From Psychrobacter jeotgali (GTDB taxonomy: Bacteria > Pseudomonadota > Gammaproteobacteria > Pseudomonadales > Moraxellaceae), in assembly GCF_904846315.1 (NCBI RefSeq), contig NZ_CAJHAF010000001.1, positions 868,001-932,000 on the forward strand: a stretch of 64,000 nucleotides of DNA. Reading direction: 5' to 3'. The notes under the pieces are model-generated. The model was given only the letters and a program-made list of their open reading frames with translations. It made no database searches and was not told the DNA's origin. Shown here piece after piece: positions 10,843 to 23,907 of the stretch. The position numbers were made by a program, and so were the translations under genes. How positions within the stretch are numbered: position 1 is the stretch's first letter; the number at the start of each line of letters is the position of its first letter.

Positions 10843-10950
10843 AGTGCTATTACTTATTCGGGGCGTATTCTTATAGATATTCAGGATAGACCACAAAGAA
10901 AGCTTAAATCCATACATGCTGCTACTGATATCACAGAGTTACAAGTCTAA
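10843..10950 (+). pseudogene. higB remnant at the distal end of the CRISPR array
   Basis: One frame reads RILIDIQDRPQRKLKSIHA and then ATDITELQV, followed by TAA at 10948-10950. It aligns with the middle of the intact HigB at 18678 (RRIPVDIQAKAQKKLEAIHA, then AIDITDLRI), and the DNA is also clearly similar (CATACATGCTGCT identical in both). The N-terminus is degraded and everything after the ITDL segment is missing, so no function is expected. It shows that a higB-like gene once stood on the other side of the array. Confidence 0.75.
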
Positions 10951-10975
10951 AATTTGTATGCAATTTTTGACAGTT

Positions 10976-11003
10976 CTCATAAGTCACCTATGCGGTGGTA
11001 TCT
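10976..11003 (-). repeat. Degenerate outermost CRISPR repeat
   Basis: Plus strand reads CTCATAAGTCACCTATGCGG then TGGTATC. It keeps the repeat core but has lost the TTTCTAAG and GTGAAG ends. It lies 125 bp from the next repeat, out of the 60-bp register. Confidence 0.8.
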
Positions 11004-11037
11004 ATTTTATCAAATTTCGTTTGAAGTCATAACTCCT

Positions 11038-11061
11038 GAAAATCCTATTTAAAGGATTTTC
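11038..11061. terminator. Inverted repeat at array distal end
   Basis: Perfect arms GAAAATCC and GGATTTTC are separated by TATTTAAA, at the trailer end of the leftward-transcribed array. It could end or stabilise the pre-crRNA transcript, but it is AU-rich and lacks a clear U tail. Confidence 0.35.
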
Positions 11062-11100
11062 CTTGCGCAGCTAAAATTGGCATACAATTTTTTAACGCTG

Positions 11101-14100
11101 CTCATAAGTCACCTATGCGGTGATGAAGCGTTAGGCGGTGCAGCTTTGTTTATCGGCACTTTTCTAAGCCACCTACGCGGTGGTGAAGGTCATCTAAGAC
11201 TAATGGTTTGACAGGTACGTTTTCTAAGCCACCTACGCGGTGGTGAAGTTTTAAACGCATAACGCAATTTGGAATTTAGATTTCTAAGCCACCTACGCGG
11301 TGGTGAAGAGATTAGATTGCCGCAAGACCCCGGGCAAGCATTTCTAAGCCACCTACGCGGTGGTGAAGTGAATAGAGAATCCTGCAATCTCATTGATATA
11401 TTTCTAAGCCACCTACGCGGTGGTGAAGACTCCTACAGGTGGTTGGGTTCGCATTCGATATTTCTAAGCCACCTACGCGGTGGTGAAGTTGATAACTTTG
11501 CTAAAACTATGGCGCATGTTTTTCTAAGCCACCTACGCGGTGGTGAAGAGTGCTTTCGTTCTTGCTAGATAGCGAATATCTTTCTAAGCCACCTACGCGG
11601 TGGTGAAGCGTAGACAGAGTAAGTGACGGCTGCTAGATCATTTCTAAGCCACCTACGCGGTGGTGAAGGAGTACTAATACCCATTAACTCATCAAATATA
11701 TTTCTAAGCCACCTACGCGGTGGTGAAGTACGCTCATCGTTCAGTACAGACGGAAACCAATTTCTAAGTCACCTATGCGGTGATGAAGCTTGAAATTCGA
11801 CGCTAAAATCATCAGACATTTTTCTAAGTCACCTATGCGGTGATGAAGTAGTCGGTATCCAATTGATCATATTGACGATATTTCTAAGTCACCTATGCGG
11901 TGATGAAGGGTGAGGTGATTGTACCTGTTTTTGATTTGTTTTTCTAAGTCACCTATGCGGTGATGAAGTTGGTGACTCTATGACTGAGGGCACTAAGGGC
12001 TTTCTAAGTCACCTATGCGGTGATGAAGATATTGCGCATTTGGGCACCGACTTGCTGAAATTTCTAAGTCACCTATGCGGTGATGAAGAACATCAACAGT
12101 GCAGTTTTTAAGCTGCAAATTTTCTAAGTCACCTATGCGGTGATGAAGGAGTCATGCCAATCTGTACTATTCGACCATCGTTTCTAAGTCACCTATGCGG
12201 TGATGAAGGAGCCAGTGACTGAAATCATACCGGCTTACACTTTCTAAGTCACCTATGCGGTGATGAAGTCGATGATGTCTTGTGCAAGCGCCACTGTCAT
12301 ATTTCTAAGTCACCTATGCGGTGATGAAGGACCCATAGCATGCCTTGACTTAAATCTTGCGTTTCTAAGTCACCTATGCGGTGATGAAGCACATTAGTCG
12401 CTTTATGTTTGGCGTGATTTTTTTCTAAGTCACCTATGCGGTGATGAAGAGGCAGCGCAGAAAAGGTAAAAATGCGTTTATTTTCTAAGTCACCTATGCG
12501 GTGATGAAGCCGGCTTAGAGATGGTCAACACCTTACGCAGTTTTCTAAGTCACCTATGCGGTGATGAAGCGGTCAGGCACTTGCACCGCTTGTTGTATCT
12601 TTTTCTAAGTCACCTATGCGGTGATGAAGAGTACAGCGGCGACTTATTCGCCCGACAATGGTTTCTAAGTCACCTATGCGGTGATGAAGTTGGCATAAAT
12701 GTCCAAACGCACTTGTAGATATTTCTAAGTCACCTATGCGGTGATGAAGAACATAGTGCTGGTTTTGTACTTGCGGTAGTTTTTCTAAGTCACCTATGCG
12801 GTGATGAAGTAGTCTTATCACCAACTGTTACGCTTCCTGATTTTCTAAGTCACCTATGCGGTGATGAAGTATTATTATTAACCCTATTGCTACCGCGTCT
12901 TTTTCTAAGTCACCTATGCGGTGATGAAGCATCAGCAGCGGCAATAGCAACAGTGTCATGATTTCTAAGTCACCTATGCGGTGATGAAGACCCGTCACAT
13001 AGCGCTTGATTAGCTCAGACATTTCTAAGTCACCTATGCGGTGATGAAGGCCTAAGACTGCTATTGACTGGCAATGCTGGCTTTCTAAGTCACCTATGCG
13101 GTGATGAAGCGAGTATGCAAAAAGTCGGTTATGCGCTTATTTTTCTAAGTCACCTATGCGGTGATGAAGGAAGCAGCCGCAGCATTGCCTGCTGAGAATC
13201 CTTTCTAAGTCACCTATGCGGTGATGAAGTTTGTACTTGCGGTAGCTGAATGGGAGTGCTTTTTCTAAGTCACCTATGCGGTGATGAAGCAAGGGGTCTG
13301 CAAGGTGAAAGAGGTTTTAGCTTTCTAAGTCACCTATGCGGTGATGAAGTCTCTGACCATACGCGCACAATTACCCATTTGTTTCTAAGTCACCTATGCG
13401 GTGATGAAGCTTCTATGCTTCGTGAAGCAACCGGCGGACTGTTTCTAAGTCACCTATGCGGTGATGAAGAGCCTTGGCTGACGCCAATAAGCTTATCTTC
13501 GTTTCTAAGTCACCTATGCGGTGATGAAGAAAAATGGGCGGGGGGAGTCATTTTAATTTCTTTTCTAAGTCACCTATGCGGTGATGAAGCAGTGACATCA
13601 TCCAGTGTTTTCTCTGAGTCGTTTCTAAGTCACCTATGCGGTGATGAAGGCGTTTTGGGTAGTTTTTTCGACACCTTTTATTTTCTAAGTCACCTATGCG
13701 GTGATGAAGATCACTAATGATGGTATTACCGGGCATGAATGTTTCTAAGTCACCTATGCGGTGATGAAGCGCGTTATGTGACTGAAACTATACCAGCTGA
13801 ATTTCTAAGTCACCTATGCGGTGATGAAGAGTGTCGAAGTGCAAGGGCTTGAAGAGCTTGATTTCTAAGTCACCTATGCGGTGATGAAGCAATAGGTCAA
13901 CTTGAGATCGGACGGTGTTTATTTCTAAGTCACCTATGCGGTGATGAAGTAAACGTTTCGGCTGTCGTCTATTGACTTTGTTTTCTAAGTCACCTATGCG
14001 GTGATGAAGTAACAGCGCCGGCATTTTCTGACTCGATAACATTTCTAAGTCACCTATGCGGTGATGAAGAAGGCTCAATCGATGCATATAGGGTTTTAAC

Positions 14101-14306: not shown

Positions 14307-14924
14307 TTACCAATGTGGTACGGTAACCGTATCTGCCGCATTGTTGATGCCATAACTATTAAACGACCCTTTGACCTCGTTATCTACCATCTCTTGAATA
14401 ATAGATAAGGTGTAAGGCTGATTATTGCTGATGCTTCTTAAGTTGATATACGGATAGGGTTTATTATCCTGCTTGTGTTTGGCGCAGTGTATCAGCGCCG
14501 CCTCCAAAGCAATGCCTTTGTGCTCAGCGAACGCTTCAGCTTGCTTGAGCACGTTTTTATGACGGTAGCGTCTGACTACGACGTGCCCTTTGGCTTTGTC
14601 ACCAACTCCATTGATGCGCTTCACATGCGCGTAGTCGGTTAATCGCTCTAACCATTTATCGAGATTTAAAGTTTCTAAGTCTTTTTGGTTTTGGGCAAAG
14701 ACACGCAATTTTAACCCCAGCTTGGATGATTTGCCCTTGTCATCATAATGATAATCAGGGAAGCTGACACCGATAGAATCGATACCGTGCTCGTTTTTCA
14801 TCTCCGCTAATGCAATATGCAATTGGGTAAATAGCTTACTCCAAATGAAGTAAGGCGCAATCTCAGGGTCGGGGATGATTGTTATTTCTTGATAATGGGT
14901 CAAGCTTGTTGTTGAGTCCGTCAT
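14307..14924 (-). CDS. cas6f: Cas6f (Csy4) pre-crRNA endoribonuclease
   Basis: Endoribonuclease that cuts each repeat at the 3' foot of the stem and stays on the crRNA hairpin as part of the Csy complex. At 205 aa it has the family size. LFTQLHIALAEM at about residues 31-42 places a His (about H36) where P. aeruginosa Csy4 has catalytic His29, followed by IDSIGVSFPDYHYD. Basic VVRRYRHKNVLKQAEAF fits the arginine-rich helix that reads the RNA stem, and the C-terminus SYGINNAADTVTVPHW parallels the family tail. It starts 3 bp after the csy3 stop. Confidence 0.95.
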   Translation of the reverse strand: MTDSTTSLTHYQEITIIPDPEIAPYFIWSKLFTQLHIALAEMKNEHGIDSIGVSFPDYHYDDKGKSSKLGLKLRVFAQNQKDLETLNLDKWLERLTDYAHVKRINGVGDKAKGHVVVRRYRHKNVLKQAEAFAEHKGIALEAALIHCAKHKQDNKPYPYINLRSISNNQPYTLSIIQEMVDNEVKGSFNSYGINNAADTVTVPHW

Positions 14925-14927
14925 GAC

Positions 14928-15953
14928 TTACTCCTTGCCGCTGGCACCGAACACGCCGCCACGGATAAGTACGCCCATCACATAATGCTGCTGGTTGACG
15001 TCTGGCGCATCACCTTTTAATACCCAATTATCAAATAGGCTGTAAAAGTCCATTTTATCTTTAGGCTGGCGGAACGCTGTGCCCAATGTCGTCACTGCGC
15101 CATAAGGTTCGATAGCGATAGGGAACTCAGCATCAGGATACCAGTCATCGATAGTGCGAATGGCATTGCTCACCTTTTGTGAGTGCATGCCTGCATTGTC
15201 CTCAGAGCCTTTTCTATCACTGACACGATATAACACTTTGCTCTTTTTACTACCGGTATCAAGGATCAGTTCCTGTGAAGGATAGACCTCTTGACCATAG
15301 CCGATGATAGCTTGCGCCTCCACATATAAAATGATGAACTCATCACCATTTAAACCTGCTTTGATCCAGTCGGCAACTTGCTTAACTGTAGCGTCAGCAC
15401 TGTCAAAGTTTTTCAGACTATAAGTCTTTGCTTCATCTACAGTAATAGTTTGGTCATTACACTTAACCGTTACTTTGATACTCTCGGTACCGACGCGATT
15501 GCGCCATAACCAACGCGCATTGAGAATATTAATAGCATAACGGCGAGCTAATTCATCTAATCCCTGATTATCGATATAGTCGGCAACGACTTGTTCCAAG
15601 GCTTGCTGGTAATCTTGGTCATTACAGACATTCGGCTTACCTGTAAAAGGCAAGACTTTAAGGCTAAAACGAGCGATTAAAGTATCATTATTTTCATCCA
15701 ACGACGCCGAATCTACTTTTTGCAAATTGGCTTTTTCGGTCTCCGCGTCCAGTTTGGCGGGATCATTGGTAATGGCATTTTTTAAGCGATTACTGATTGT
15801 ACCGCGTACGGATTTTTCTTTGATAACGACGGGGAATGCGGTTTTATTCTCGCCACTTTCTTGACTATCCGTTTGCCAAAGGTAAGCATCTGATACGTCT
15901 AGATTGCGCTCAAAAGCTAGAACAGAAGCGGTTTTTAGGGCTGTTTTTGACAT
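14928..15953 (-). CDS. csy3: Cas7f (Csy3) Cascade backbone subunit
   Basis: Six copies of this protein form the backbone that holds the crRNA spacer in I-F Cascade. The start is set at ATG 15951-15953 (MSKTALKTASVLAFERNLDV), with GGAGAA 6 bp upstream, instead of an in-frame ATG 12 bp earlier. Family features include AFERNLDVSDAYLW at the N-terminus, RNRVGTESIKVTV in the middle and HYVMGVLIRGGVFGASGK at the end. Length of about 341 aa is normal. A 75-bp gap separates it from csy2. Confidence 0.95.
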   Translation of the reverse strand: MSKTALKTASVLAFERNLDVSDAYLWQTDSQESGENKTAFPVVIKEKSVRGTISNRLKNAITNDPAKLDAETEKANLQKVDSASLDENNDTLIARFSLKVLPFTGKPNVCNDQDYQQALEQVVADYIDNQGLDELARRYAINILNARWLWRNRVGTESIKVTVKCNDQTITVDEAKTYSLKNFDSADATVKQVADWIKAGLNGDEFIILYVEAQAIIGYGQEVYPSQELILDTGSKKSKVLYRVSDRKGSEDNAGMHSQKVSNAIRTIDDWYPDAEFPIAIEPYGAVTTLGTAFRQPKDKMDFYSLFDNWVLKGDAPDVNQQHYVMGVLIRGGVFGASGKE

Positions 15954-16040
15954 GTGATTCTCCATGAATATAAGAAATGAACAGTTAAATGGAACGGGTT
16001 TTTGATTGTTTGAAATTTTTAAAATAGGACGAAAATAAAT

Positions 16041-16991
16041 TTAAAATTTCTGATTCTGCGTCACTAAGTATAGTGATTCCTCATTATCGTAATATTGATA
16101 CCAAAGGGCATCGGCTAAGTCATTAATGCGATGCGGAAATACCCATTTACCAAGGCTATAGATCGCTTCAACATATTGGCTTGGATATTCAGGATTGCGC
16201 ACGTTTTGCATTATCCCAGCGTCATAAATCTCGGATATACCTTGGAAGCCTACAGGAATAGGAACGAGCCAACCTCTGCCTTGTTTAGATGATTTTGTCT
16301 GCCAATCAGTCAAGCCTTGCGCATTATCGATAGGTTCATGTGTCATGGTAGCGGTGCTTATTAGCGCATCCATTGCAGTAGCTTCAGGGTTTTGTTGTTG
16401 TAATTGTTCAGTGATACTGGTTAAATCTTTTGGAGCATTCATTAGAATAAAGGCAGGAAGTAACGCTTTACTAAAATTATTAATGTCCTCGGCTGGCACG
16501 TAATTAACAGGATCAAAACGATCTAAACTAAGTACGCTACCACCTGCCATACGCTGTTGTTGGATCTTAAATCTGACAGTTTGTAGTAACTTGGTAATTT
16601 GATCGTCTTCTAGCATAAAATCATTAGCGTACACCCCAATGACTAAAGAGACTCGTAGATGACAGCGCCCTTCTTCATTAATTGACGCCGTTTTGCCAGA
16701 TTTAAGGATAGGGTTACGTGTTTGGTTAAAGGTGTAGTCTTTATAACTCGCTTCACGATAGGTTTGCGGTTGACAATCAAAGCAGGCAATGAGTACGCCA
16801 TCGAGACTAATATCCTCTAATCCATCAACTGTAGCAATCTTACGGCTGAGTGCGTGAATAGCGCCAGTAAATCCAGTGATCGCTGGAAATCCATAGGTGA
16901 TAGGGCTGGATACGGCGTTGGCATTTTGGATGCGAATGTTTTTGATCATCACGTAGCCCACTAAGTCTTTGTCTGAATAAATAAAACTCAT
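16041..16991 (-). CDS. csy2: Cas5f (Csy2) Cascade tail subunit
   Basis: Binds the crRNA 5' handle together with Csy1. The 316-aa protein begins MSFIYSDKDLVGYVMIKNIR and has the RAMP-like fold segments ANAVSSPITYGFPAITGFTG and a C-terminal region with WLVPIPVGFQGI and YSLGKWVFPHR typical of Csy2. Its ATG overlaps the csy1 stop (ATGA at 16988-16991), so the two are translationally coupled. No catalytic function is expected. Confidence 0.94.
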   Translation of the reverse strand: MSFIYSDKDLVGYVMIKNIRIQNANAVSSPITYGFPAITGFTGAIHALSRKIATVDGLEDISLDGVLIACFDCQPQTYREASYKDYTFNQTRNPILKSGKTASINEEGRCHLRVSLVIGVYANDFMLEDDQITKLLQTVRFKIQQQRMAGGSVLSLDRFDPVNYVPAEDINNFSKALLPAFILMNAPKDLTSITEQLQQQNPEATAMDALISTATMTHEPIDNAQGLTDWQTKSSKQGRGWLVPIPVGFQGISEIYDAGIMQNVRNPEYPSQYVEAIYSLGKWVFPHRINDLADALWYQYYDNEESLYLVTQNQKF

Positions 16992-18388
16992 GTAAATGCT
17001 CCTTGTCCAAGACGCTGTGATTCTTTTAAGGCATCAGCCATCTCCTTCTCCCATTGGTTTTGTTCGGGATCACCAAAGTCCTTTTTTAACTTTGGAAACT
17101 CATTTTTCAGTAAATCTTGTAGCCAAGCTGCAAATTTTGCCTCTATCTCTTGCTGCCAGTATCCTCTCTCAAACTCAGCCTGAAAGTCAGCTTCCCCCTC
17201 CAACTCACCTCTGAAAGGATCAAGCCATAACTTTTCGGCATAGTCTAAATTGTTATAATCGGCTGACCAGCCAGCAGGTCGATTGCTTTGCATACTATTG
17301 GCGATTTGTAATATTTGCAGCAGTAAGTCATCGAGTATGACTTTGCGAGTATCACGAATACTCATATTGTTATGACGGGTACCAATAATCTTATAGAGCG
17401 CATCTAACGTTCTGCGAGTCTTGTAAGCCATCGTTTTGGCATTAAATATACTGCTGGCATTTTTACTAAAACTAAATTCTTGCGTTTGAGTAAAGCTTGG
17501 CGGTATAGACGGCAGTAGATAAGTTTTACCGCGCTTTTTGCTCATCAGTTGGCTGACGCCTTGTGGATTACTACCACCAATATTGAGTACAGCTAAGTCT
17601 TTGATAGTGACATAGCTTGTCTGTATTTCATTAACCTTGCTTCTATTCTTCTTTGCTAGAGTATTAGCATCTGAGAACTTGATATCTTGAATTTTTTCAT
17701 ACAAGTGATGGGTTAAAGCGGTGGGGTAGAGGGGTATGACACAGTGATAAAAACGCTCTTGAGCTGACTGACTATCATCGATAAGTGGCCATAGAATTTG
17801 CTTATTTAACTCATCGGTCTTTGGTGTTTCAATATAGGCCACTACGAGCTTATAAAAGGTATCTTGTATTTGCTCGGAGGTTTCAGTATTGCTATGGAAT
17901 ACTCCGTTGAGAGCGGGATGTTTGGCTTTTATTAGCTCGCTTATAGTGGAGCTGCTGTTGTCTTCATAATAAACTTGTGTTTGCAAAAAAGCGGCAAGAG
18001 GTAAGGCGGCCGCGTTACCGCTAGCATCAGTGATAGGGTGTTTAATAGAATGATGACCTACGATAGACTGCTTATTAATAGAGTCAGAAGGAATGTAAAT
18101 AGCGTTATCTCCTTTAGAGCTGGCATGAACGCCCTTGGAGATATGAGTACCAAAGCTGAGCTGCTTACTCATCCAAGCGTGTGCGTATTCCATCCACGCA
18201 TCTAGTGCGTATTTATCTTGAGCTTTTTTGATATCTTCTTTAGCTTTTGTCTGCGCATCAATATCATTATCATTGTCTTGTGTCGCTTTCTCCAAGATTT
18301 TTATCAAAGATGCTGCTTTTTTATCAAATTGCACACTTAAGAAGCTATCAATAGCTTGTTTAATTTGCGACTGAGTAATATTTTTCAT
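16988..18388 (-). CDS. csy1: Cas8f (Csy1) large subunit, PAM recognition
   Basis: Large subunit of I-F Cascade that reads the CC PAM and contacts the crRNA handle. The 466-aa product begins with a helical, Lys-rich region and has the family landmarks LNIGGSNPQGVSQLMSKKRG (about 270-290, the Csy1 NIGGSNPQN-type motif) and a charged C-terminal helical domain ending ADALKESQRLGQGAF. It is the first gene of csy1-csy2-csy3-cas6f. The predicted promoter lies about 60-90 bp upstream and overlaps the CreR target site. AGGA lies just ahead of the ATG. Confidence 0.95.
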   Translation of the reverse strand: MKNITQSQIKQAIDSFLSVQFDKKAASLIKILEKATQDNDNDIDAQTKAKEDIKKAQDKYALDAWMEYAHAWMSKQLSFGTHISKGVHASSKGDNAIYIPSDSINKQSIVGHHSIKHPITDASGNAAALPLAAFLQTQVYYEDNSSSTISELIKAKHPALNGVFHSNTETSEQIQDTFYKLVVAYIETPKTDELNKQILWPLIDDSQSAQERFYHCVIPLYPTALTHHLYEKIQDIKFSDANTLAKKNRSKVNEIQTSYVTIKDLAVLNIGGSNPQGVSQLMSKKRGKTYLLPSIPPSFTQTQEFSFSKNASSIFNAKTMAYKTRRTLDALYKIIGTRHNNMSIRDTRKVILDDLLLQILQIANSMQSNRPAGWSADYNNLDYAEKLWLDPFRGELEGEADFQAEFERGYWQQEIEAKFAAWLQDLLKNEFPKLKKDFGDPEQNQWEKEMADALKESQRLGQGAFT

Positions 18389-18449
18389 TTCCTAAACCTC
18401 AAATTGCAATAAAATATTTTGATCTGTAATGAGATTAACATACTATATT

Positions 18450-18478
18450 ACTATATTGCCACTATATAATTGGTTAAA
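18450..18478 (-). promoter_or_regulatory. Predicted csy1 operon promoter
   Basis: On the minus strand, TTTAAC (plus 18473-18478), a 17-bp spacer and TATAGT (plus 18450-18455) form a sigma-70-type promoter. The start would be near 18443, leaving a leader of about 55 nt. The region between the two boxes contains the protospacer bound by the putative CreR guide. Confidence 0.6.
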
Positions 18479-18487
18479 CTTTTATAA
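18459..18487 (+). promoter_or_regulatory. Putative CreR target site (PAM CC + partial protospacer)
   Basis: CC at 18459-18460 is followed by a sequence matching the mini-CRISPR spacer. Positions 1-5, 7-11, 13-15, 17 and 19-23 are identical. Mismatches are at 6, 12, 16, 18 and 24-27. Positions 6, 12, 18 and 24 are those known not to pair in Cascade R-loops, and 16 would be a G-T wobble. The match covers the -35 box and the spacer of the predicted csy1 promoter, so a bound Cascade would block it. Loss of pairing after position 23 would explain repression without DNA degradation. Confidence 0.82.
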
Positions 18488-18495
18488 TAAAAATA

Positions 18496-18524
18496 TTGAT
18501 AGTGTAGTATTTTGATGTTAGCAT
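18496..18524 (+). promoter_or_regulatory. Candidate promoter of the mini-CRISPR RNA
   Basis: TTGATA (18496-18501), 17 bp, TAGCAT (18519-18524). Transcription would begin near 18531, at the first base of the first hairpin. That would explain why only the bases upstream of the stem in the first repeat have decayed. It is back to back with the csy1 promoter. Confidence 0.5.
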
Positions 18525-18526
18525 AG

Positions 18527-18609
18527 TTTGACTATCGTGTAGATAGCTTAGAAAACTATTTAATTAGTTGATCTTTTTATTCTTCACCACCGCTTAGGTG
18601 GCTTATCAT
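18527..18609 (+). ncRNA. CreR-like mini-CRISPR guide RNA (two degenerate repeats, one spacer)
   Basis: The first repeat-like unit is 18527-18554. It has stem CTATC/GATAG and loop GTGTA, different in sequence from the array repeats but perfectly paired, and then CTTAGAAA (18547-18554), identical to the canonical 8-nt handle. The spacer-like part is 18555-18581, 27 nt. The second unit is 18582-18609: CTTCACCACCGCTTAGGTGG, then CTTATCAT. Its stem, CCACC/GGTGG, is that of the old distal repeats of the array. Cas6f processing would give a 55-nt guide (8+27+20) instead of 60. The spacer matches the csy1 promoter next to a CC PAM. The family resembles the Cas-regulating RNAs described in other type I and type V systems. 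Expression is not shown here. Confidence 0.82.
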
Positions 18610-18610
18610 A

Positions 18611-18649
18611 TTGCTATTACTTACGCATGGCGTTATTATAGTGCCATGC
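18611..18649 (+). promoter_or_regulatory. higBA promoter with HigA-type operator
   Basis: TTGCTA (18611-18616), 17 bp, TATTAT (18634-18639) form the likely promoter, beginning 2 bp after the mini-CRISPR. A perfect inverted repeat GCATGGC (18625-18631) / GCCATGC (18643-18649) spans the -10 box and is well placed for HigA autorepression. Confidence 0.7.
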
Positions 18650-18677: not shown

Positions 18678-18959
18678 ATGATTGTATCCTTTGCTGATAA
18701 GGCAACGGCAGCAATTATTAAAGGAGAATACGCTCGACGTATCCCTGTAGACATTCAAGCTAAAGCTCAAAAAAAGCTTGAAGCCATACATGCTGCTATT
18801 GATATTACTGACCTACGAATACCCCCTGGTAATCACTTAGAAAAGCTAAAAGGTGATAGAGAAGGTCAATATAGTATTCGTATAAACCAGCAGTGGCGCA
18901 TTTGCTTTATATGGTTCAACGGTAATGCAAAAAATGTTGAAATCGTTGATTATCATTAA
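18678..18959 (+). CDS. higB: HigB-family toxin (RelE superfamily)
   Basis: A 93-aa ribosome-dependent mRNA interferase of the HigB/GraT branch. Seen: a basic N-terminal helical region (RIPVDIQAKAQKKLEAIHAA) and then the beta-core LRIPPGNHLEKLKGDREGQYSIRINQQWRICFIWFNG ending VEIVDYH. This includes the NQQWR and CF segments typical of active members. It is followed 30 bp later by the antitoxin gene, the inverted order usual for higBA. The pair is opposite in strand to all cas genes and splits them into two transcripts. Toxicity is inferred from the family. Confidence 0.9.
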   Translation: MIVSFADKATAAIIKGEYARRIPVDIQAKAQKKLEAIHAAIDITDLRIPPGNHLEKLKGDREGQYSIRINQQWRICFIWFNGNAKNVEIVDYH

Positions 18960-18989: not shown

Positions 18990-19343
18990 ATGTCTATTAC
19001 GATGCAAAACGCCAAGCACATGGATTTTAGTGATGTAGCATATGGTGATATACCAAAGCGTCTACCTACCGCACCGGGTGAATACCTCAAAACTGAATTC
19101 CTAGACGAGTTGGGATTATCAGCTTATGCGCTTGCCCGCGCTACACACATGCCAGATTCGCGTCTAAGCGAAATTATTAATGGCAAACGAGCTATTACTG
19201 CTGATACAGCACTACGCCTAGCCAAATACTTCGGTATGTCTGCCCAATTTTGGCTTAATCTGCAAAGCCATTATGATCTTGAGATGACTCGCCGAGAAGT
19301 AGCCGATGATATCGATACCATTGAGCCTTATGACATAGCTTAG
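18990..19343 (+). CDS. higA: HigA-family antitoxin, XRE helix-turn-helix
   Basis: A 117-aa antitoxin and autorepressor. The helix-turn-helix is LSAYALARATHMPDSRLSEI then INGKRAITADTALRLAKYFG (about 48-86), followed by the HigA signature MSAQFWLNLQSHYDLE. The N-terminus (about 1-30) should bind HigB. It should bind the palindrome at 18625-18649. Its stop is only 13 bp from the cas2-3 stop, so the two are convergent with no room for a separate terminator; read-through would make RNA antisense to cas3. Confidence 0.92.
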   Translation: MSITMQNAKHMDFSDVAYGDIPKRLPTAPGEYLKTEFLDELGLSAYALARATHMPDSRLSEIINGKRAITADTALRLAKYFGMSAQFWLNLQSHYDLEMTRREVADDIDTIEPYDIA

Positions 19344-19356
19344 CTATCAGCTACAA

Positions 19357-22300
19357 CTATGAACGATAACCGTCTTTGAGTACCCCTTCATCTTTCCAAC
19401 AGCCAAAGCGCTCATCAAAAAACCATCCCAGCTTACTATCATAAACTGAGACCACTGCAAACCTCATTAATATCGTGTTTGGACTCAAGTCAGCGTGTGC
19501 TGACTGTACCTCTAGCAAAGTATTGGTAAGACTATCATGCAGCCACGGTGTAACGTGATCATTAGATAACGGCATCAGGTTTGGCTTGATGACCTTGGTT
19601 GTCGTAGGCGTCTTTGATAGGCCTTGTGCGCAAGCTTGTTCAGAGTCATACACTACATATTGATGCAAGCTTTCGTTAAACTCATCACTAAGCTCATCGA
19701 TACTAAGTGCTGGCTCATCGTTATTTAATAAGGGTTTAAAATCCGTGGGTTCAATAATATATTCTGTCTGAGATTGACCTGCTCTAAAGGGCGTGAGACA
19801 ACTTAGATGTACATGCGAGCGGTTTGAGGTATTAGGGTCTTGCCAGTAGCCATTGACCACATTAGTCTTATCGTTAGCCATCAGGTCTTTTATGACGCTT
19901 TGCTCAAGATCGCTTAAATATTGCGATCCATCAAAATCAGAATGGGTATCTATAGCATTATGAATTCTAGATCTAGCATCGATACGCTGTAACTCTGCTT
20001 CTCTAAAAACATCTTCACTATTATGACTGGCTAATAGAAAATCTTTTTGCTCAAATCCGGGCTTAGTAAAGACAGCCTCAGCTGCGCCTCTATTGGATTG
20101 CTTTAGTGCTCTGATATTATATTGTAATAAGCTGATATTAGGCGTATTTGCTATCTTGTCAGGTCGATGCCGCCATACCCGCCCAGCTAATTGGATAATA
20201 GAGCGCATGGATGATGGCTCTACGATTGCCCAATCATAATCGTGGTCGCGTCCAACTTCTGCTACCGCTGTAGCAAGCACGATAAAGATATGATGGGTTT
20301 TATCACTATGTGTTTTAATGGCATTAGAGATATGCTCACTGTTAAATATATCATGCTCATTATCACTACCTCGTTTAAGTAGTTTATCGAGTTTGGTTTC
20401 TAAGCGATTACGCAGGATCAAAACTTGATTGGCGTGATAGCAGCATAGGTGGTAGTGCGTAGTTTTAGCCGCTGGCGTGTCATCAAGGTTGAACATAGCC
20501 ATAGCGGTATTCATAAGAGGCTGAATGTTCGCCATGCGAATCAAACCAATACTTACTTGATAAGGATTGTCTTTTTTCTTAATACTATGGTTTAGATGTA
20601 ATACGCTTGCTTGGTTCAATAACGCTGTGGCAAATTTTTCATAAAAGACAATATGCTGCTCTTTTTCATAAGTGAAGGCTAATGGCAAGATATTTGCTTG
20701 ACGTCTGATAGGTTGCTGTTCTAAATAATCAATTCTAGCAGCGACAAACTCGCTATGACGTTCTTTAAAACCATCTTTATTAGTACAGGGAGTAATTACA
20801 CTGTTATTTTCATCGAACCAGCCACAAATGACATTAGGATTAGGCTTTTGTAGCTGAGCGTTAAATAATTGTCTACCAGCCAAGTAAGACGCAAACAACC
20901 CTTGCACCATATCTGGTGGCAGAGTCGCAGACGATAGCATTACTCTTGAGCCAAACAGCCCTGCTAGATGTACTAGCCTTGATAGGGCAGGTAAGTCTTT
21001 ATGATCGAAATCGTCTGGCTCATCCAATATCAAGTCACTACTGAGCAGCCGTAAGATGGGCGCTATATGTTTGCCGCCTCGTTTGCATTCGCTAGCCTGA
21101 ATAATATGGTCAATCGTACAAACGACCATAGGGGCAAATAATAGTTCCTGAGTTTTTTTACTCTCAATCACCGTGCCTAATCCTAACTCTTCATAATCAG
21201 CAATATCGATCTCACTGTCTATCCATTCATCTATCAGTGGATTGGCAGACTCACTACCCAATACCGAGTCGTAGTTTGCAGATTCAAAGCTTTCTTGGTA
21301 GTCAGTTAAAAGGTTTGCAGTATCTGTAGTATTAGAGTTTGAGTCCGTTTGGGTCAGCTCAAATAGCTGCTTCTGTGCTGTACCACCCACTAAGACTGCA
21401 AGTTGGCTCGCGCTTAATTGTAAGTCCTCTCTAAAACTAAGTCCTGTCTGTAAGGTCAATACTCTAAGACCTAAAGCAACGGTTATACGAGCGCCTTTTT
21501 TGGGATCAGACAGAGCATACATAATACGAGCATTACCAATGGTTTTGCCGCCACCAGTTGAGGTCATGTTGACCCCAAAAAAACCATGCTCTTCGCTTTG
21601 TACACGATGTTCATAAGCTTGTTTGAATGCTTTATTTTGCCATTTAAAGCGTTTGTGAGCCGTGTTCTTAACCAGAGGATCGTGCCCAATCAGTCGAGGG
21701 AGTCCATTATGAATAGCAGGGAGCGAGCGACAAAACTGCGCGGTAAAATCACCAACACCGATTAGATGTTCGTCCAATGCTTGTTTTATTTCATGGGTTT
21801 GCCGATCGGTATTGGCAGCAAGCTTATCTTTGAAGTCGACACTACCTTGTGCTCGTCTTTTGTCATTAGCATCCAAACTTGAATAATTATGGTCACCTAT
21901 CATCAAGCATAGGCGTGATAAGTGTAATAAAAAGGGATCACTAATAGCTTGGTTTTGCTCAGTAGCTTGCTGACTCAGCTGTTGTAGTTGTGGATGCAGT
22001 GTTGCCTTCTTTGCCCAGCGTTTTAGTTTGCGCTGCCACAAAGAGCTATAGATAACCAAATCGTCAAACTGCCAAAAGCTTTCCTGTTCAGCATTATTCA
22101 TGTCAGCAATGCTCTTAGGATTTTTGACCCAATAATCATAAGGTTTTATAAAGGCGTAGAACTTTTGTTGTTCCGCTTTAAGTTTAGGGTTGTTGGCTTT
22201 TTTAAGTTTCTCAGCTGTCGATTCATTGAACCAATATGCTGTTAGCGGTGGCAAACGATGATGAGTCACAATTAACCAAGCGACCCAACCGGCAAGCGGC

Positions 22301-22908
22301 GGCAATTGATCTAACTTGGCTTTATCTACGTCTTGTTGCCATACCTTTGAGGCTGGAGAGTTTGAGCTAAGATAATCAGGTAAATTTCGTAAACGCTCTA
22401 GCCACTCTTGATCAGTATTACAATCAGCAATAAGCCATATAAATAACTTTAGCGAAATCCACTCATGGCGATAGGGATCGCCTTTAGAGGATTGATGAAA
22501 TAGTTTATGTTGAAAACCAATAGTCGATTTACCGATATCATGAAGTAGTGCAGCAATAGTTGCGATAATCTGCATACTTTCGAGCGATGCCCAGTTATTT
22601 TCCCATTCTCGATGTAATAGGTTACGCTTTGTCCAATTCACGGGCACCACGCCGACTTCATTAAACTGACGTTTATTGCCCACCACCCATACCAATTCTG
22701 TCAGCTGGCGCGTCTTATTACGATGACAGCTTACCGCTGTCGACTTGGTCGCTGACTTGCGCAACAGTTGCTTAACCGTCTGTAATCCATCCTCGGTAAT
22801 CGCCGTCTGCCAAACATTGTCACCAATTCGGTTAGCAAAGGAATCCAAGATACGCCGTGTGCGCTTGAGTGATTTTTTCTCACATTGAGAGACAAAAGTG
22901 ACAATCAT
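19357..22908 (-). CDS. cas3: Cas2-Cas3 fusion nuclease-helicase
   Basis: Type I-F fusion, 1183 aa. Residues 1 to about 95 are the Cas2 domain (MIVTFVSQCEKKSLKRTRRI), which in I-F links Cas1 to Cas3. The HD nuclease motif is at about H123-D124 (ALLHDIGKSTIGFQHKL), with further metal ligands such as THHRLP (about 215-220). The SF2 helicase has Walker A STGGGKT (about 450-456), DEPDDFD as the DEAD-box equivalent and SSATLP as motif III. Motif VI is QLAGRVWRHR. A C-terminal accessory domain follows. It starts 3 bp after the cas1 stop. It degrades DNA unwound from Cascade-bound targets and takes part in spacer acquisition. Confidence 0.96.
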   Translation of the reverse strand: MIVTFVSQCEKKSLKRTRRILDSFANRIGDNVWQTAITEDGLQTVKQLLRKSATKSTAVSCHRNKTRQLTELVWVVGNKRQFNEVGVVPVNWTKRNLLHREWENNWASLESMQIIATIAALLHDIGKSTIGFQHKLFHQSSKGDPYRHEWISLKLFIWLIADCNTDQEWLERLRNLPDYLSSNSPASKVWQQDVDKAKLDQLPPLAGWVAWLIVTHHRLPPLTAYWFNESTAEKLKKANNPKLKAEQQKFYAFIKPYDYWVKNPKSIADMNNAEQESFWQFDDLVIYSSLWQRKLKRWAKKATLHPQLQQLSQQATEQNQAISDPFLLHLSRLCLMIGDHNYSSLDANDKRRAQGSVDFKDKLAANTDRQTHEIKQALDEHLIGVGDFTAQFCRSLPAIHNGLPRLIGHDPLVKNTAHKRFKWQNKAFKQAYEHRVQSEEHGFFGVNMTSTGGGKTIGNARIMYALSDPKKGARITVALGLRVLTLQTGLSFREDLQLSASQLAVLVGGTAQKQLFELTQTDSNSNTTDTANLLTDYQESFESANYDSVLGSESANPLIDEWIDSEIDIADYEELGLGTVIESKKTQELLFAPMVVCTIDHIIQASECKRGGKHIAPILRLLSSDLILDEPDDFDHKDLPALSRLVHLAGLFGSRVMLSSATLPPDMVQGLFASYLAGRQLFNAQLQKPNPNVICGWFDENNSVITPCTNKDGFKERHSEFVAARIDYLEQQPIRRQANILPLAFTYEKEQHIVFYEKFATALLNQASVLHLNHSIKKKDNPYQVSIGLIRMANIQPLMNTAMAMFNLDDTPAAKTTHYHLCCYHANQVLILRNRLETKLDKLLKRGSDNEHDIFNSEHISNAIKTHSDKTHHIFIVLATAVAEVGRDHDYDWAIVEPSSMRSIIQLAGRVWRHRPDKIANTPNISLLQYNIRALKQSNRGAAEAVFTKPGFEQKDFLLASHNSEDVFREAELQRIDARSRIHNAIDTHSDFDGSQYLSDLEQSVIKDLMANDKTNVVNGYWQDPNTSNRSHVHLSCLTPFRAGQSQTEYIIEPTDFKPLLNNDEPALSIDELSDEFNESLHQYVVYDSEQACAQGLSKTPTTTKVIKPNLMPLSNDHVTPWLHDSLTNTLLEVQSAHADLSPNTILMRFAVVSVYDSKLGWFFDERFGCWKDEGVLKDGYRS

Positions 22909-22911
22909 TTT

Positions 22912-23907
22912 CTACACCTTCCAGTCGCTAGTCATCGCCAACTGCTTAACCACCTCAAACTGATAATCCAGCGCCTTATGCTTAGTAAACATATTGATGC
23001 ACTCTTGGCGAAACTCTTGCTCGCTCATGTTTTCACTGGCACAAATAAAGGCAAGAGGTAGCACTAACGCATCTTTAATAATATCAGCAATATCAAACAC
23101 CAATGCCCCGCGCCGCGTCTTGCCATGCATCACCGCAAAACCGTGTGGAATGCCCAGCGTCCATGCGGTTGTCGCACCGAGTCCATAAGCCAAATAATTA
23201 CCATGATTGAGAAAGCCATTCGCCTTATCGATACCTTCATGTTCACGAGTAAAGCCGTCATAGCCGGTATTTTTAGCAGCCAGCTTATATAGCTGCTTGG
23301 TCAGGCGGGCTTCAAGCTGCAATAAATGCATGACCTCGATTTGCTTATCAATTTGACCAATATTGTCATTAAGCAGTTTCTGTATCGCCTCATTACTACT
23401 ATCAAAGCCGTGGCGCTTAAAGTCGCTATCTTTACCCCAGACCGCTTGCAGATAAGCAATGCGTGCTATTTGCAACTGCTTGGCAGCAGCGAGGCGCTTG
23501 TCTTCATCCCACCACCAGCTCATCCAGCCTTGAATGTATTCAGTCGGTCGATACTCGCTTTGCGGGGTCATCCATTCGACGAAGACTTCACGCTCCGTGC
23601 CCATAAACAGCGGCATACCGCCGCCACCGCAAAACCCCACCAGTACGCCAGCTTGCGAGAGCAGACGCATCGCCGCTTGGGTGATAGAGGTTCCCGTACC
23701 GAGCAAGATGGAGGTGGTATTAGCAATTGGGATGTTGTAATAAAGATTGGCTTTGTCGTCTTCGGTGAGATAGAGGACGCGGCCATCTTTTTGCATGACC
23801 CGGCAGTGGGATAAATAATAGATATTGGCACGTTTGGAGTGCAAGATGGTCTTAAGGTCGGAGGAAACAAAGCTATTATCGGTATAGGGGTTGCTGGGTT
23901 TGGGCAT
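22912..23907 (-). CDS. cas1: Cas1, spacer integrase (type I-F)
   Basis: Integrase subunit of the Cas1-Cas2/3 complex. The 331-aa protein shows the I-F type landmarks: ILHSKRANIYYLSHCRV, LLGTGTSITQAAMRLLSQ, GFCGGGGMPLF, and the catalytic region NGFLNHGNYLAYGLGATTAW with HGFAVMHGKTRRGALVFDIA, where the His and Asp ligands lie. First gene of the cas1-cas3 transcript. Its upstream region holds two strong dyads (23968-23982 and 23982-24033). The 9-mer TATTGCCAC is shared with the csy1 promoter region. Confidence 0.96.
   Translation of the reverse strand: MPKPSNPYTDNSFVSSDLKTILHSKRANIYYLSHCRVMQKDGRVLYLTEDDKANLYYNIPIANTTSILLGTGTSITQAAMRLLSQAGVLVGFCGGGGMPLFMGTEREVFVEWMTPQSEYRPTEYIQGWMSWWWDEDKRLAAAKQLQIARIAYLQAVWGKDSDFKRHGFDSSNEAIQKLLNDNIGQIDKQIEVMHLLQLEARLTKQLYKLAAKNTGYDGFTREHEGIDKANGFLNHGNYLAYGLGATTAWTLGIPHGFAVMHGKTRRGALVFDIADIIKDALVLPLAFICASENMSEQEFRQECINMFTKHKALDYQFEVVKQLAMTSDWKV

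Follow-up and report, generated by a model that had tools for sequence, protein, structure and literature searches.

A mini-CRISPR in the cas3-csy1 gap of a Psychrobacter type I-F locus encodes a predicted crRNA-like guide to the region upstream of csy1

CreR is described in the available text of two reviews as a crRNA-like guide which is encoded by a mini-CRISPR and is partially complementary to the promoter of its own cas genes, and its autorepression is predicted there to be relieved by crRNA competition or by an anti-CRISPR (PMC12737573, PMC13131331). In type I-F systems, the mini-CRISPR of the CreTA module represses its target promoter through the Csy proteins, Csy4 being needed, and in published CreTA the creT start site precedes the target; Wang et al. 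described three creTA modules from this gap, to which a search added 19, according to the accessible portion of their paper (PMC10097628). In an I-F1 system, Cascade forms and binds over a range of spacer lengths (14-176 nt), and Cas2/3 is triggered only by R-loops of full length or longer, as stated in the part of the study that is available (PMC7296934).

We identified a lone mini-CRISPR (18527-18609) followed by a higB-higA pair on the plus strand of the cas3-csy1 gap in the 64-kb window, which is the whole stretch of Psychrobacter jeotgali DNA that was analysed and which carries a type I-F system on its minus strand, as judged from profile matches (Table 1). The guide of the window is similar to CreR in that it is crRNA-like, is derived from a mini-CRISPR and is partly complementary to its own cas promoter region. 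In contrast to CreR, which the available text describes for types I-B, I-E and V-A, it belongs to type I-F, lies in the cas3-csy1 gap and is a sequence-based prediction. With the I-F CreTA of Acinetobacter, as far as its available description goes, the window has the cas3-csy1 gap, the psiR1-psiS-psiR2 organization and the CC PAM in common, whereas CreTA acts on the toxin gene creT and in the window a creT ORF is lacking and csy1 is the next gene. Shmakov and co-workers are said to have predicted, in a survey of 2023, mini-arrays whose spacers have partial complementarity to cas8 promoters and to have tested one I-F1 case; this I-F1 mini-array would resemble the window in that feature. Cas9 is reportedly subject to self-repression as well, by a long-form tracrRNA acting as a short-match guide on its own promoter (work of Workman from 2021), but that system is of type II and its guide comes from the tracrRNA, without a mini-CRISPR. 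An autorepressing guide in type I-F had been put forward as new in a preliminary description of this DNA. This view had to be given up, because mini-CRISPRs are already known from this gap under the name of CreTA (PMC10097628) and CreR is described, in the text available, for I-B, I-E and V-A. No description of the window's locus was recognised in the open literature searched, which leaves out most subscription papers. The locus is a predicted addition of an I-F case to the known CreR-type self-control.

Table 1. Features of the cas3-csy1 gap and neighbouring genes (positions in the window).
Feature	Position	Strand	Remarks
PAM CC, I-F type	18459..18460	+	CC PAM for I-F according to the available text of PMC10097628
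Target	18461..18483	+	19/23 positions match the guide
psiR1, degenerate repeat	18527..18554	+	Hairpin intact; CTTAGAAA handle
Spacer (guide)	18555..18581	+	27 nt
psiR2, degenerate repeat	18582..18609	+	Hairpin intact; degenerate 3' end
Predicted mature guide RNA	18547..18601	+	55 nt; predicted from the I-F CreA layout 8 + spacer + 20 (available text of PMC10097628)
Predicted guide-RNA promoter	18496..18524	+	TTGATA-17-TAGCAT; 9/12 consensus, TG before second hexamer
Candidate csy1 promoter region	18437..18477	-	TTAACC 18477-18472 / TATAGT 18455-18450, or TATGTT 18442-18437
higB	18678-18959	+	
higA	18990-19343	+	
cas1f	22912-23907	-	
cas3f (cas2/3)	19357..22908	-	TIGR02562
csy1 (cas8f)	16988..18388	-	TIGR02564, E 2e-105; first gene downstream of target
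csy2	16041..16991	-	TIGR02565
csy3	14928..15965	-	TIGR02566
csy4 (cas6f)	14307..14924	-	TIGR02563; predicted guide-RNA processor

Direct reading confirmed that the element is a single repeat-spacer-repeat unit on the strand opposite to the cas genes, as had been noted before. Like CreR, it is a crRNA-like unit outside the array with a short spacer between two repeat-like sequences. Compared to the two repeat versions of the array, psiR1 is identical at 21/28 and 18/28 positions and psiR2 at 24/28 and 22/28. Both keep a Csy4-type hairpin with a 5-bp stem and a 5-nt loop, the stem changes in psiR1 are compensated (CTATC/GATAG vs CCACC/GGTGG), and the psiR1 handle is exactly CTTAGAAA. The predicted RNA is composed of an 8-nt handle, the 27-nt guide and a 20-nt 3' hairpin part; in the predicted fold of the complete element, guide bases 1-5 lie in a small hairpin and the handle is partly paired. 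An ordinary CRISPR array, defined by near-identical 28-nt repeats and 32-nt spacers, was considered for 18527-18609 and rejected on the 27-nt spacer and on repeats agreeing with those of the array at 18-24 of 28 positions.

The array itself lies beyond csy4, extends to near 10964 and has about 50 repeats with a unit length of 60 nt. Its repeats (10964-14100) occur in two versions with compensated stems, CCACC/GGTGG far from csy4 and TCACC/GGTGA nearer to it, and psiR2 looks closer to the far-end version. Next to the far array end, a 79-nt stretch (10864-10942) without an open frame of higB length is 78% identical to part of higB (18738-18816) and is likely a remnant of a second higB.

The target ends up 72 nt upstream of the csy1 start. 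The guide is mismatched at positions 6, 12, 16 and 18, with a guide G facing T at 16, pairing stops at base 23, and positions 24-27 are again mismatched, all of which agrees with what had been claimed. When the 289-nt gap was shuffled with dinucleotides kept and the spacer held fixed, none of 2000 shuffles reached 19/23, the best match behind a CC never exceeding 17 and, with the CC requirement dropped, the best 23-nt match never exceeding 18, so that the match of the 27-nt spacer to 18461 onward behind CC was corroborated. A search of the whole genome (3.14 Mb) with the guide pattern, in which positions 6, 12, 16 and 18 were masked and up to three mismatches were allowed, returned only the target (0 mismatches) and the spacer itself (2), and the reversed-pattern control gave 0 matches in the same genome. 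The guide therefore combines, as in CreR, partial complementarity with a usable PAM in its own cas promoter region, at a predicted position. Phage-borne copies were sought with three exact patterns, modelled on the window guide, the L076/L079 guides and the L065/L179 guides, and these gave 0 matches in viral contigs.

Regions upstream of csy1 were collected from related genomes. Csy1 was found in 20/105 genomes of the same genus and in 76/348 genomes of the family (63 of the 76 above the curated cut-off), and a contig scan yielded 51 named loci. Of 126 loci entered (the window and L060-L184), 108 were retained after removal of 15 duplicates and three loci without a usable csy1 start (L099, L107, L184). 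The regions were searched blind, in the order hairpin, handle and best CC-flanked 18-nt match, with all positions counted. This search gave 206 candidates in the 108 regions, true-array spacers near csy1 included, of which 165 score 7-11 and 29 score 14-18. At least 14/18 at a CC-flanked site was reached by 29/206 candidates compared to 3/4120 in shuffled regions, which corresponds to an expectation of about 0.15 among 206; this threshold in itself limits mismatches to four. Psychrobacter, Moraxella, Acinetobacter, Advenella, Endozoicomonas, Sansalvadorimonas, Aggregatibacter, Gallibacterium and Ignatzschineria are among the named records in the set of 29, which also contains elements with odd strands or distances (e.g., L081, L100, L123), where a chance hit is possible. 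Four loci scoring 12 or 13 (L070, L096, L113, L129) were added by hand, on their layout, to the ORF and promoter analyses and stand outside the set of 29.

The guide is present in 10/16 assessable same-genus loci with the window's Csy1 type (L184 being truncated by the end of its contig) and in 0/4 loci with a divergent Csy1 (L152, L153, L157, L158). The element is dispensable, because it is absent from the other six of the 16. The cas3-csy1 gap measures 266-1013 nt where the guide is present and 77-243 nt where it is absent. By eye, a single psiR2-like hairpin was seen in the 78-nt guide-less gap of L177 (= L067, L018), perhaps a relic of a lost mini-CRISPR. Arrangements opposite to that of the window, with the mini-CRISPR on the csy1 strand, occur in L069, L077, L086, L091 and L105; the target is on the csy1 strand as well in L069, L077 and L105, and on the strand opposite csy1, 11 nt from the csy1 start, in L086 and L091. 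Other genes are found in the gap too. In L022 (3080-3632), the gap of which equals that of L181, a BrnT toxin gene and a small ORF lie between mini-CRISPR and target, this cassette being a second, different toxin-antitoxin pair in an I-F gap. In L013/L076 and L019/L079 a DUF2188 gene lies between the guide target and csy1, and because of this position the L076/L079 guide may control the DUF2188 gene too.

Guide and target change together among the 29 elements. The guides fit their own target with a mean of 15.1/18 and the targets of others with a mean of 6.6; the own target is the single best one for 21/29 guides, and the other eight are members of close-relative pairs. Cross-fits of at least 13 are mostly between close relatives, with exceptions such as the L159 guide on the L100 target (14). 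Within the window's clade (window, L060, L170), compensated changes, meaning that at least two loci pair through different bases, were found at 8/23 positions, and at six of these eight (7, 17, 19-22) the pair is kept in all three loci. Each of the three guides matches its own target at 19/23 positions and those of the other two at 13-16, and none of the three pairs at position 6 or 18. Some close pairs outside this clade (e.g., L065/L179, L076/L079) have no compensated position because they are too alike. Independent drift of spacer and target, named beforehand as the outcome that would speak against the guide, was looked for and, given the 8/23 compensated positions, was absent.

The mismatches are distributed unevenly along the guide. 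Over the 29 elements, there are none at positions 1-5, 18 at position 6, none at 7, 19 at 12, 15 at 18 and two to six at each other position from 8 to 17, followed by 8-9 at 19-20, 16-17 at 21-23 and 21-24 at 24-27. Positions 6, 12 and 18 are mismatched in 52/87 cells, vs 31/435 at the other 15 positions. Reduction to 12 cluster representatives, obtained by single linkage with some unrelated AT-rich guides merged, left 21/36 cells at these three positions vs 11/180 elsewhere, and 0/20000 shuffles matched this signal in any phase of six. Type I Cascade flips out every sixth base of the duplex. The period-six mismatches correspond to this flip-out, which argues that the guides work in Cascade on DNA. 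Together, the compensated changes and the period-six mismatches point to selection on guide-target pairing, as in CreR. For I-F CreA, bases 6, 11 and 18 are described as unpaired and loss of pairing as tolerated at 10, 12, 19 and 20, in the available text of the study (PMC10097628).

Promoters were predicted with a simple consensus score devised for this analysis. The promoter predicted for the guide RNA would give a start near 18531, and in 18/33 elements, the window included, transcription from the best upstream site would begin at the hairpin, compared to 166/3300 in shuffles. On the csy1 side, five promoter-like sites were counted in the region vs 2.4 (sd 1.4) in shuffles; the best site in the window is weak (9/12) and overlaps the target, and TATGTT, 16 nt beyond the PAM complement, is invariant in the window, L060 and L170. 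Among the 23 loci with the orientation of the window, the predicted -35 begins one base past the PAM complement in 11 (shuffles, 20/2300), and all 11 have 17-bp spacing and an extended -10; this layout was not seen in the window's clade. From these predictions, a target at the csy1 promoter is well supported for the family as a whole and likely for the window locus. The idea that the guide covers the csy1 -35/spacer region is accordingly plausible, the exact -35 position at this locus being tentative.

The mini-CRISPR thus very probably encodes a predicted crRNA-like guide that would direct Cascade upstream of csy1 and repress csy1-csy4 without Cas3 cutting. The dedicated promoter would start the guide RNA at the psiR1 hairpin, Csy4 would trim it to 18547-18601, and the type I-F Cascade (Csy1-Csy4) would load it. 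Cascade at the csy1 promoter would then block RNA polymerase and lower csy1-csy2-csy3-csy4 transcription. The short R-loop would fail to call in Cas2/3, if the no-cutting rule of I-F1 short spacers applies to the window with its 27-nt spacer and pairing to base 23. The outcome would be a negative feedback in which Cascade that is free holds down its own synthesis; this synthesis would rise when free Cascade becomes scarce, through competition by many crRNAs or through an anti-CRISPR. The CC PAM, the compensated changes, the period-six mismatches, the promoter-like site for the guide and the lack of a creT-like ORF are all in agreement with a guide of the CreR type whose target is the csy1 promoter. 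That proposal is supported by these sequence tests, its function being a prediction. Points that speak against it are the weak csy1 promoter prediction in the window, which departs from the -35 layout of the 11 other loci, the predicted fold in which guide and handle bases are engaged, the dispensability of the element, and the toxin, rather than csy1, as the object of the published CreTA.

The main rival explanation is I-F CreTA, because the published Acinetobacter CreTA occupies the same cas3-csy1 gap; the guide would then be the CreA antitoxin RNA, with Cascade repressing a toxic creT RNA between the target and csy1. The window has, as CreTA does, a mini-CRISPR in this gap and a CC-flanked partial target, and gap, orientation, repeat-spacer-repeat layout and PAM are as in the tested Acinetobacter case, as far as described in the available text (PMC10097628). 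CreTA-like loci were also recovered by the blind search, with L121 unpaired at 6, 11 and 18 as published. A creT-like mini-ORF with a Shine-Dalgarno (SD) sequence (10 codons and a stop, 33 bp), however, lies about 130 nt ahead of csy1 in the Acinetobacter-genus loci L121, L122, L129 and L130; the window and 15 other loci with a PAM 14-88 nt from csy1 have no SD-led mini-ORF of at least six codons. The 18-codon frame of the window lacks an SD, and in each of the two close relatives it is interrupted after three codons; the idea of a conserved leader peptide ahead of csy1 was likewise rejected on the loss of the frame in these two. Assignment of the window to I-F CreTA was rejected on the missing creT mini-ORF and on csy1 being the next gene. 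A CreTA version with a toxic RNA without an ORF may exist in the window, and the CreTA explanation as a whole is very improbable.

Decay would explain the element as a leftover array whose spacer resembles its surroundings by chance and has no function, and the degenerate repeats and the absence of the element from 6/16 assessable same-genus loci would suit it. Decay would not, however, be expected to produce compensated changes, period-six mismatches or hairpins kept through stem changes, and true-array spacers near csy1 mostly scored at most 12 in the same search, leaving this explanation very improbable. Even less credence is given to a guide that controls the higBA operon as a Cascade-guarded toxin-antitoxin pair, which we consider extremely unlikely. 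In the window, L060 and L170, the higBA genes follow the mini-CRISPR immediately and in the same direction, and L181/L022 carry a BrnT toxin gene in the gap, but the target lies towards csy1 and is separated from higB by the guide gene, and the genome holds no further guide match. Moreover, 7/10 same-genus guide-bearing loci have no higBA in the gap, and higBA has its own promoter-like site (18611-18639) over a GCATGGC/GCCATGC inverted repeat noticed by eye, an arrangement expected for self-control by HigA. The earlier suggestion that the guide is wired to the toxin-antitoxin operon was not borne out by these loci and this promoter-like site, and neither the genome pattern search nor the 10 same-genus guide loci revealed a link to higBA.

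Apart from the autorepressing guide proposed for the window, a broader reading of the gap is offered tentatively and is possible, if rather doubtful. The cas3-csy1 gap would hold one old guide element in two interchangeable forms, with the window representing the autorepressor form and higBA being a passenger. In the autorepressor form, the PAM would lie exactly against the csy1 -35 and the RNA would start at the first base of the hairpin. In the derived form, target and csy1 would have become separated by a toxin or other cargo gene (creT in loci of the Acinetobacter genus, the DUF2188 gene in two from Psychrobacter), and the feedback loop would thereby act as an addiction or cargo switch.

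If the autorepressing guide is real, the I-F system uses an RNA guide to sense how much of its effector is free, and cas expression would go up under a heavy load of crRNAs or in the presence of an anti-CRISPR. The relatives provide a clear natural record of the guide bases needed for binding without cutting, with bases 1-5 and 7 always paired and 6, 12 and 18 largely free in the 29 elements, and they place the self-limiting form beside the toxin-guarding form in the same gap.
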